Assembly: GCA_002163005.1 (NCBI GenBank)
Contig: MAAF01000060.1
Location: 1-64,000, forward strand
Direction: 5' to 3'
DNA from: Colwellia psychrerythraea
Lineage (GTDB): Bacteria > Pseudomonadota > Gammaproteobacteria > Enterobacterales > Alteromonadaceae
DNA length: 64,000 nucleotides
The position numbers were made by a program, and so were the translations under genes. The first letter of the stretch is position 1. The number at the start of each line of letters is the position of its first letter. Positions 2,769 through 5,282 of this stretch are shown piece by piece. Under the pieces are notes generated by a model that saw nothing but the letters and a program-made list of their open reading frames with translations, was not told the DNA's origin and did not search any database.

Positions 2769-2872
2769 AACTATTTTCCTTGTGATATTTATTAGTATTT
2801 TATACCGATATTATTATGCTATCGATTAAGCTATTAATTAACGACAATATTTATAACAGATTTGAAACAAAC

Positions 2873-2933
2873 AAGCAGCGTTGATTTTATTTCCATACAT
2901 ATTTCATTGTAAGTAAATAAATCAACACTGCTT
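2873..2933. repeat. long inverted repeat upstream of the methyltransferase gene
   Basis: The left arm at 2873-2892 (AAGCAGCGTTGATTTTATTT) and the right arm at 2915-2933 pair over about 19 bases with one mismatch and one bulge, around a 22-base loop. T-rich sequence follows on the plus strand. It may be a terminator or a degenerate mobile palindrome; its role is not clear. Confidence 0.5.
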
Positions 2934-2969
2934 TTATTTTACACTTTTTATCACACCTTAATGAAGTTC

Positions 2970-3055
2970 CTTTAAGCTGATTGGTTCAATTTACAGAAAA
3001 AAGCACGGAGCTGACGAATGTCAGTGAGTACTTTTGACGCATAAATTGAGCCAAC
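2970..3055 (+). repeat. structured repeat, copy 1
   Basis: The copy opens with CTTTAAG and has nested inverted arms. The outer stem pairs TTGGTTCAATTTA with TAAATTGAGCCAA, the middle stem AAAAG with CTTTT, and the inner hairpin CTGAC-GAAT-GTCAG. Unpaired CACGGAG and TGAGTA flank the inner hairpin, and TGACG sits before the outer right arm. Two further copies keep these unpaired parts while the stems differ. Confidence 0.75.
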
Positions 3056-3077
3056 TGAAACCTCATTAACGAAGCAC

Positions 3078-3166
3078 CTTTAAGCTAGAGTATTCAAAAT
3101 CAAACGATAAGCACGGAGCGTATGACTATACGTGAGTACTTATCGTGACGAGTTTGTGTTCTCTAG
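3078..3166 (+). repeat. structured repeat, copy 2
   Basis: This copy has the same framework as the one ending at 3055: CTTTAAG start, CACGGAG and TGAGTA around the inner hairpin, TGACG on the right. All stems are changed with pairing kept: the inner hairpin is CGTAT-GACT-ATACG, the middle stem CGATAAG / CTTATCG, and the outer arms CTAGAG / CTCTAG and CAAAC / GTTTG. Compensatory change on both sides points to selection on structure. Confidence 0.75.
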
Positions 3167-3181
3167 CGACAAGGTTATTTG

Positions 3182-4783
3182 TTAATGGCGGAAGTGACGC
3201 ATACCTGTAAACACCATCGCGATGTTATGTTCGTCTGCTGCAGCAATAACTTCGTCATCACGCATAGAGCCACCTGGCTGAATTACAGCAGTAATTCCTG
3301 CTTCAGCTGCAGCATCTAAACCATCACGGAATGGGAAGAATGCATCAGAGGCCATAACAGACCCTTTAACTTCTAAGTTTTCATCAGCAGCTTTTATACC
3401 AGCAACTTTTGCTGAGTATACGCGGCTCATTTGGCCTGCGCCGACACCGATAGTTGAGCTATTTTTAACATAAACAATGGCGTTAGATTTAACAAATTTC
3501 GCTACTTTCCAACAGAATTGTAAATCACGCATCTCTTCATCAGTAGGTTGACGTTTAGTTACTACTTTTAAGTCATCACTTGTTACGCGACCTTGATCAG
3601 TATCTTGTACTAATAAACCACCGTTAACACGTTTAAAATCGAAACCAGTAGTTTTGTTATCCCACTGACCACATTCTAATAAACGTAGGTTAGGTTTAGC
3701 AGCAACAATTTGTGCAGCCGCATCTGAAACGCTTGGTGCAATAATCACTTCAACAAATTGACGAGATACAATTGCTTCAGCCGTATCTGCATCTAACTCA
3801 CGGTTAAACGCGATAATGCCACCAAATGCTGACGTTGGGTCAGTTTTATAAGCGCCTTCATAAGCGGCTAAAATATCATCACCAATCGCAACACCACATG
3901 GGTTTGCATGTTTAACAATTACACAAGCTGGCTCATCAAATTCTTTAACACATTCTAATGCCGCATCTGTATCAGCAATGTTGTTATAAGATAAAGCTTT
4001 ACCTTGTAATTGTGTCGCAGTAGAAACTGACGCTTCTTCAGGGTTCGCTTCTTTGTAGAAAGCAGCATCTTGATGTGAGTTTTCACCGTAGCGTAAATCT
4101 TGAGTTTTAATAAACTGGCTATTAAAAGTACGTGGGAATTTAACTTTGTTGTCGAAAGACGCTTCAGATTCTGTTTCGCCGTACGCTGGTAACATTTTAC
4201 CAAAGTAGTTAGCAATCATACCGTCGTAGCTAGCTGTGTGCTCGTAAGCAGCAATTGCTAAATCGAAACGTGTTTTATACGTTAAAGAATTATCGTTATT
4301 ATCTAATTCAGCTAATACACGATCGTAATCGCTAGCATTAACAACAATAGTTACGTCTTTATGGTTTTTAGCAGCGGCGCGAACCATTGTTGGTCCACCG
4401 ATATCAATATTTTCAATGGCATTTTCTAATGAACAGTTTTCATCACTAACGGCATTAGCAAATGGGTACAAGTTAACCACTACCATATCAATTGCGCTGA
4501 TACCGTTTTCGTCCATTACGACTTCATCAATACCACGGCGCGCTAAAATGCCGCCATGTACTTTAGGGTGTAACGTTTTAACACGACCATCCATGATTTC
4601 TGGATGACCAGTGTAATCTGAAACTTCAGTTACTTTGATGCCGTTTTCGGCTAATAATTTTGCTGTGCCGCCAGTAGAAAGAAGATCAACACCTTTCTCA
4701 CTTAGACGTTGAGCAAACTCAACAATACCTGCTTTATCAGAAACACTTAATAGTGCGCGTTTAATTGGACGTGGAGTATCCAT
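3182..4783 (-). CDS. purH: bifunctional AICAR transformylase / IMP cyclohydrolase
   Basis: This enzyme makes the last two steps to IMP: formylation of AICAR with 10-formyl-THF, then ring closure. The 533 residues fit the family. The N-terminal MGS-like cyclohydrolase domain (about 1-200) shows [11 protein letters not shown] near 34-44 and [14 protein letters not shown] near 70-83. The C-terminal transformylase domain carries [12 protein letters not shown] near 288-299 and ends in GMRHFRH. Structured repeats lie on both sides: one in the leader, two past the stop in the opposite orientation. No E. coli-style PurR operator was seen upstream. Confidence 0.97.
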
Positions 4784-4824
4784 AATTTTATTTACCTTTC
4801 ATTTTTTAACGATCCATCTTGTTG

Positions 4825-4913
4825 CTGTATTGCCCAATTAGTACGTCAAAATTACTCACTGACATTCGTCAGCTCCGTTACTTTTCCTGCTAATTGCACC
4901 ATACAACTTAAAG
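4825..4913 (-). repeat. structured repeat, copy 3, in the purH leader
   Basis: On the minus strand it starts with CTTTAAG and has the inner hairpin CTGAC-GAAT-GTCAG, the ACGGAG and TGAGTA internal parts, and TGACG on the right. The outer stem pairs GCAATTAG with CTAATTG plus GTAT with ATAC, different bases from the two copies beyond the purH stop but paired at the same places. It ends about 40 bases before the purH start and would be in its mRNA leader. Confidence 0.75.
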
Positions 4914-4956
4914 CTGAACAGTTAATTGAATAAATATTTAGAGTGATTTAAAACAT

Positions 4957-4979
4957 AAAAAGCACCCGAGGGTGCTTTT
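4957..4979 (-). terminator. rho-independent terminator after fis
   Basis: A near-perfect stem AAAAGCACCC / GGGTGCTTTT with a two-base GA centre lies 16 bases past the fis stop. With A and T runs on both sides it ends the dusB-fis transcript before the purH leader. Confidence 0.8.
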
Positions 4980-4994
4980 CATTAAAATTCGATA

Positions 4995-5282
4995 TTAGTT
5001 CATACCGTATTTTTTAAGTTTCTTGCGTAACGTACCGCGGTTGATGCCTAGTAAGTTAGCTGCGCGTGTTTGGTTACCGCGAGTGTACATCATAACTTCT
5101 TCTAACATTGGCGCTTCAATTTCGCTCAATACAAGGTCATACATATCATCAACATCGTTACCATTCAATTGTGATAAGTAGTTGCTAATTGCGATTTTAG
5201 CTTGGCTACGTAATGGAGAAGTTTTTGTTTGTGTTTGAATATCGCCAGTGATAAATGGAGAAGAAACATTTTGTTCGAACAT
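4995..5282 (-). CDS. fis: DNA-binding protein Fis
   Basis: Fis is a small nucleoid protein that bends DNA and activates rRNA promoters. The 95 residues are close to the 98 of E. coli. The C-terminal helix-turn-helix (about 70-95, with [21 protein letters not shown]) is fully recognisable, and the N-terminal part has the dimer helices. It lies 62 bases after dusB on the same strand, the conserved dusB-fis arrangement. The rrn-type promoters at the left end of the window would be natural targets. Confidence 0.97.

Follow-up and report, generated by a model that had tools for sequence, protein, structure and literature searches.

ERIC, IRU and RU-1 elements have been described from enterobacteria and Vibrionaceae (PMC2229807; PMC10969869; PMC2267715). 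ERIC is described as inserting with a TA duplication (PMC2229807), and for Yersinia the published accounts give it an orientation-dependent effect on mRNA stability (PMC2229807; PMC10969869). A 2007 review leaves the mechanism of movement of such repeats to future work (PMC2229807). ERIC repeats are also widely used in typing. Overlap of ERIC with stop codons in a preferred orientation, as well as internal insertions of ~70 bp, have reportedly been noted by De Gregorio (2005) and by Wilson and Sharp (2006).

REP and BIME sequences, associated with RAYT, are likewise dispersed, structured intergenic repeats at gene ends, a REP being ~30–40 bp in length. The elements described here share this general character, but they are far longer, their stem sequence is not conserved, and Y1_Tnp was not found in 12 of the 39 genus genomes that carry them. 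Integron attC sites keep their shape while the stem sequence varies, and one strand is folded. The present copies resemble them in these respects only: they are single or in short tandems beside ordinary genes, and none of the attC core motifs was seen by eye. With a probability of roughly 60%, we read the present copies as a new family, ERIC-like in design: dispersed hairpins of ~122 bp that are non-autonomous and for the most part old, with MITE-like spread, in which the folded strand matters and which are now largely residents at gene ends. No description of this hairpin family was found in the literature searched, which covered papers open without subscription, so that its absence from print is not established.

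The window (the whole 64-kb stretch of DNA analysed) contains three sites with the pattern ACGGAG..TGAGTA, at 3005–3030 and 3113–3138 on the plus strand and at 4853–4878 on the minus strand, compared to a mean of 0.05 and a maximum of 1 in 100 dinucleotide shuffles. They belong to three structured copies around purH, at the places where an earlier, sequence-only reading had put them (Table 1). Copy 2 was excluded from the building of model R1 (described below), yet was recovered by it; its middle stem is longer. The arms were placed by extending the pairing across the family. That reading had listed unpaired motifs common to the copies, and the apex motifs are indeed kept far beyond the three, whereas its CACGGAG is not present in copy 3, which has AACGGAG. 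It had also placed two copies, in opposite orientation, past the purH stop. The orientation was correct, but copy 2 does not lie wholly beyond the gene, since its 3′ arm contains the stop codon (TTA, 3182–3184). A purH relative at E ≤ 1e-50 is present in 37/39 genus genomes; in one relative, at G007:C1:990806-992403, purH is reported as two matches in different stretches, one with an internal stop.

Table 1. Positions, strands and supporting details of the elements and neighbouring features (window coordinates, except in the last line, which gives loci).
Feature	Position	Strand	Details
Copy 1, full element with arms	2957–3078	+	Core 2969–3069; R1 93.8 bits, E 5.9e-21
Copy 2, also full, forming a tandem with copy 1	3065–3186	+	Core 3077–3177; R1 63.8 bits, E 1e-12
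Copy 3, sense orientation, in purH leader	4805–4926	-	Core 4814–4914; R1 103.7 bits, R2 105.5 bits
purH, 533-aa ORF	3182–4783	-	Name taken from the sequence-only reading
Terminator-like hairpin 3′ of the gene upstream of purH	4955–4982	-	Consensus match; 3 such sites vs. 2.0 expected
Long inverted repeat with T-rich end	2869–2941		By eye, also in many genus relatives; not reported by the terminator scan
172-bp derivative	L354–L361, L364–L374		Genome G163

The gene at 4995–5282, which we take to be fis-like, is followed by the terminator-like hairpin, so that copy 3 lies between this hairpin and purH. The purH transcript may possibly end at the long inverted repeat, in which case copies 1 and 2 would lie in its 3′ untranslated part. 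Copies 1 and 3 have 26 identical bases in opposite orientation (3005–3030 and 4853–4878), so that in a purH mRNA containing both, pairing between the leader and the 3′ part is conceivable.

Beyond the 101-nt core, in-register pairing extended ~12 bp on the upstream side and 9 bp on the downstream side before dropping to background, showing that the element is a single hairpin of ~122 bp; the boundaries given in the sequence-only reading were thus too narrow. The arms have a consensus near (G/T)TAACTATTCA. Inward from them come a step resembling CTTTAAG/GACAAG, then the long outer stem and an asymmetric loop, which reads AAGGA / GACGCA in the own-genome copies; the middle stem, the GGA / GA internal loop and the apical stem follow. 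The first pair of the apical stem is G·T, a wobble, in 41/46 diverse copies and A·T in the other 5. For the internal loop, a kink-turn and a sarcin-ricin reading were weighed by eye only and not adopted. Three loci have an extra insertion of ~70–76 nt at one internal place, beside the apical GAGTAC: L114 and L123, which are the purH 3′ site in G036 and G033, and L231, which is the L013 site in G018. This resembles the ~70-bp internal insertions reported for ERIC.

The stems covary. Seven copies from the own genome, gathered with a sequence pattern, had both sides altered in 14 of 32 pairs, with a covariation score of 0.362 compared to 0.182 ± 0.026 for shuffled and ≤0.107 for slid alignments. 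In 46 diverse copies, changes on both sides were seen in 43/45 base pairs and all four helices covaried; the covariation score was 0.667, against 0.126–0.185 with slid partners, and 85.1% of the cells were paired, against ≤41.8%. None of 500 shuffles attained any of the five measures. With 46 related copies and a structure drawn from the family itself, this count gives no probability; the case rests instead on how far the slid controls fall short. The sequence-only reading was right on both counts that it had singled out: stems that covary rather than vary independently, and apex motifs conserved far beyond the three copies rather than confined to them.

RNA from the element strand folded better than shuffled sequence, with z scores of −3.3, −4.9 and −3.9 for copies 1, 2 and 3. 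The energies leave the strand question unsettled, since for copies 1 and 2 the complement folds equally well or better (−28.3 vs. −33.9 kcal/mol and −38.2 vs. −38.0 kcal/mol, element strand first), while for copy 3 it does not: this copy alone clearly prefers its own strand (−32.1 vs. −19.7 kcal/mol). Without selection on a single strand, the loss of a Watson–Crick pair should produce G·T and A·C in roughly equal numbers. We counted 189 G·T and 24 A·C cells in 81 copies (106 matches minus 13 duplicate or partial rows and 12 with indels), most of them gathered by a covariance model that itself rewards G·U. When the count was limited to the 30 pairs with a Watson–Crick majority, the numbers were 87 and 20. 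With the near-invariant wobble omitted, the ratio of G·T to A·C was 81:18 in copies antisense to their neighbours, 29:2 in 13 sense copies and 7:4 in mixed contexts. The outer stems of 20 copies found by apex sequence alone, in which some rows are out of register and several copies are orthologues, had 52 G·T, 22 A·C and 127 other mismatches.

We also compared orthologous copies, using 128 genus copies in 18 groups that had been gathered with the apex motif. One-sided changes between copies ≤10% apart (33 pairs) comprised 40 G·T and 14 A·C; at ≤6% (20 pairs) the ratio was 16:10, and in the core of the antisense subset of close orthologues it was 5:8. Conserved columns changed less than variable ones (29/957 vs. 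49/924). An earlier set of four site groups gave 18 G·T, 12 A·C and 31 other changes. In the family as collected, G·T thus firmly outnumbers A·C, which speaks for a single folded strand; selection on the copies where they now lie is no more than likely. A double-stranded DNA cruciform was rejected on account of the asymmetry, which takes the earlier conclusion, that covariation implies a constraint on a folded single strand, one step further. We considered the possibility that there is no selection on folding at all, and that hairpin-templated (template-switch) repair of imperfect palindromes keeps the arms matched. Such repair would account for arms that change jointly at one site in sister genomes, as at the L013 and gspG sites, and fits with the age of the own-genome copies and the weak asymmetry in very close orthologues. 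However, it should be strand-symmetric, so that no excess of G·T would be expected, and it would not conserve the apex motifs; we regard this explanation as very improbable.

Searching the own genome with the sequence pattern gave 8 places, compared to 3 for a reversed control pattern, and model R1 was built from 7 of the 8. R1 in turn recovered at least 32 own-genome copies at E ≤ 1.1e-5, plus another at E 0.2, with 150 of 1365 candidates scored. The search of the genus genomes that the sequence-only reading had proposed gave R1 matches in 39/39, with 6–46 in each at E ≤ 0.01. Across the order, R1 matched in 55/295 sampled genomes at E ≤ 1e-4, and the wider model R2, built from the 46 diverse copies, in 90/295 genomes and 22/99 genera at E ≤ 0.001; both searches scored 11–13 candidates per genome, and the copy counts there are lower bounds. 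Exact matches to a strict apex pattern in named records comprised 20 loci from Vibrio, Aliivibrio, Psychromonas and one unclassified gammaproteobacterial MAG. Small genomes of order family f7, along with genomes of f8, f9, f13 and f14, contain several mostly weaker R2 matches each (L158–L187), which suggest further related elements, some of ~106 or 147 bp.

The copies have a preferred place. Among 94 copies with called neighbours, many of them orthologues, 68 were antisense to both neighbours, 15 were sense to both, 10 lay between convergent genes and 1 was undetermined. The stop codon of the antisense gene fell on or beside the 3′ end of the element in 73/94 copies, and the mirror arrangement was seen in none (0/94). 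The first base of the stop lay at position +16 from the core end or nearer, most frequently at +5 and at ≤+9 in 64 copies; with the stop so near the core, the terminal arm usually contains it. Clusters of C-terminal peptides showed that the 73 docked copies represent ~42 distinct gene ends, and from these peptides the docking and host genes presumably include leuC, infB, mreB, dnaK, guaA, groES and ndk. A purine-linked regulator of purH was rejected in view of this diversity.

The bracketing of purH, which the sequence-only reading had put at the centre, is consequently not the point. Although the model matched the purH 3′ end in 26/30 genus loci, it matched the leader in only 4/30. By eye, the 3′ end has an interrupted copy in L114, a degenerate one in L115 and no copy in L116 and L121, and the element occurs there in several versions with differing stems, at times in tandem. 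Many genus genomes without a copy in the purH leader show another conserved, repeat-like leader instead, CATGTAAC..AAGTTAGCAGTA (L099–L101, L103, L104, L106–L111 and others). In four genomes of another genus (L071, L079, L080 and L094, one equated with Psychromonas), purH has a copy at the corresponding position, and a further one, in sense, precedes purD; the two genes were recognised by eye.

Such positions raise the possibility of a cis-regulatory RNA, a leader or 3′ UTR structure read by a ligand, protein or RNase and repeated by chance. The element-strand RNA folds well, and in 13 of the 15 copies sense to both neighbours a start codon follows 17–37 nt past the core; the 29:2 ratio also comes from 13 sense copies. 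Yet in the 68 copies antisense to both neighbours the folded strand lies outside the neighbours' mRNA, and the G·T excess is present there too (81:18). Furthermore, the docking genes are diverse and there is no Rfam match: Rfam 15 gave 0 matches in the 64-kb window at gathering score, and at E ≤ 5 the sole match to copies 1 and 2 was a snoRNA on the opposite strand (E 3.6). We therefore consider a cis-regulatory RNA improbable.

The sequence-only reading knew of no named family that fits. In the sense of strict membership this stands, as the Rfam result shows, but ERIC/IRU is a relative in design. Both are single, long imperfect hairpins near coding ends (~120–127 bp in ERIC, IRU and RU-1), and the apex of E. 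coli ERIC, GGAG-stem-TGA with a G·T wobble, is shared with the present family; this apex is our own reading of ERIC, not a published criterion. The wobble is present in 29/31 ERIC sequences, namely the E. coli sequence and 30 loci fetched by DNA similarity alone. When R2 was run with filters off on 93 kb around the 30 ERIC loci, it gave 35 matches at E ≤ 10, of which 25 were on ERIC and its strand, one per locus (25/30), and 10 were elsewhere. The scores on ERIC were low, 13–28 bits (20.2 and 16.6 bits for two E. coli ERIC loci), 5/30 loci were missed, and in six (L188, L195, L196, L198, L199 and L201) only the ERIC apex was matched, which indicates a shared design, and perhaps shared descent, but not membership.

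The two kinds also differ in detail. ERIC ends are TATACCC-like rather than TTAAC/GTAAC-like, and the arms and internal loops are unlike. Docking on stop codons is one-way in the present family, while the 30 ERIC loci were mixed in orientation (12 ++, 9 --, 5 +- and 4 -+), with the ERIC 3′ end contacting a stop codon in five (L205, L213, L214, L216 and L217). E. coli ERIC DNA matched in 35/295 order genomes at E ≤ 1e-5, with two candidates scored per genome; in the same search ERIC DNA was not found in the own genome. The genus is represented in the sample by two genomes, G000 and G004, and neither gave a match. In G103, G216 and G246, from the family of the Vibrio record, ERIC and the present family occur at different coordinates. 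The ends of the present element read (T)TA(A), with which a putative empty purH leader in L113/L114 agrees by eye, and the palindromic ends would mask a 2-bp repeat. The present family might itself be a divergent branch of ERIC, given the common apex GGA-G..T-GA, the wobble at similar frequency (29/31 and 41/46), the similar length, the R2 matches on the right strand and the five stop-codon contacts. We think this distinctly unlikely, since the ends are unlike, ERIC DNA was not matched in G000 or G004 with two candidates scored per genome, ERIC orientation is mixed and both kinds coexist in three genomes. As far as the sequences go, ERIC/IRU is a clear relative in design, without the present copies being ERIC in the strict sense. 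It is possible, though doubtful, that the two are branches of an ancient superfamily of mobile hairpins with a single folded strand read by its shape, in which the apex GGA-G..T-GA would be a recognition site and the 3′ ends would settle on stop codons, perhaps supplying them. If that were true, the open question of how ERIC moves would become a search for an apex-binding protein.

Comparison of 24 own copies showed a maximum pairwise identity of 79% and a median of 58%; by this measure the own-genome copies are old. No signal of an 8-bp target duplication was found in 207 ordinary copies, where the mean was 2.21 of 8 matches compared to 2.19–2.29 in permutations. Each of the 49 boundary combinations gave at most one copy with ≥7/8 matches, and one of five permutations also gave one. 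Recent movement was seen once only, in G163 (from the genus of the Psychromonas record), which contains 11 full or nearly full copies of a 172-bp derivative with 99–100% identity over 171–172 bases. The derivative consists of the element plus ~48 bp upstream, with an inner terminator-like hairpin, and its ends are perfect 12-bp inverted repeats near the family arm consensus. Among the 8 copies read, 7 are flanked by exact 8-bp direct repeats, and in the eighth the repeats agree at 7 of 8 positions; the last base of the unit differs in one of the seven copies with exact repeats. This is direct evidence that such arms can act as transposition ends, at least in the 172-bp derivative. IS66 has GTAA ends and 8-bp duplications, and the derivative is like an IS66-type MITE in both respects, whereas the ordinary copies are without the duplications.

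At E ≤ 1e-5, Y1_Tnp matched in 27/39 genus genomes, some of the assemblies being incomplete, and was not found in G038, G011 and G003, which carry 44, 37 and 36 copies. DDE_3 matched in 14/39 of the same, partly incomplete assemblies at the same threshold, and the own genome was not among them. A dedicated mobiliser of RAYT or IS630 type in the genus is thus unsupported, since neither domain tracks the element. The distribution of Y1_Tnp also bears on the idea that a recombinase or HUH transposase recognises the element as a hairpin of single-stranded DNA, comparable to attC or REP/RAYT, where covariation would reflect recognition at mobilisation only. Stems that vary around fixed apex bases, an asymmetry that favours one strand in the antisense copies too, and the weakness of that asymmetry between very close orthologues, which selection chiefly during copying would predict, are all consistent with such a hairpin. 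We nevertheless think it unlikely, because 12/39 genomes, including the three copy-rich ones, were without a Y1_Tnp match and because the mobile derivative has inverted ends and 8-bp duplications, like the product of a double-strand transposase.

Under the preferred reading of a new ERIC-like family, past copying by a putative enzyme would have spread the element as a MITE-like unit, with the arms serving as terminal inverted repeats. The folded strand would be read by its shape, since the stems vary freely while the apex motifs do not. Most copies would now be old residents of gene ends, perhaps partly held there by selection on the fold, and by analogy to Yersinia ERIC their role in place is probably that of a hairpin at transcript ends and in leaders that alters mRNA stability.

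A sister-like family with many covarying copies reveals which parts are constrained (the apex, the wobble and the strand) and provides a dataset for testing candidate binding proteins. Docking on stop codons in a fixed orientation, furthermore, amounts to a natural series of gene-end variants on which effects on mRNA could be measured, and some of the docked gene ends have unoccupied counterparts in close relatives. In a comparison of six sites in five genomes of close relatives, the leuC site was occupied in the own genome, G003, G035 and G018, and unoccupied in G010 and G012, while the gspG and L013 sites carried different covarying versions of the element.
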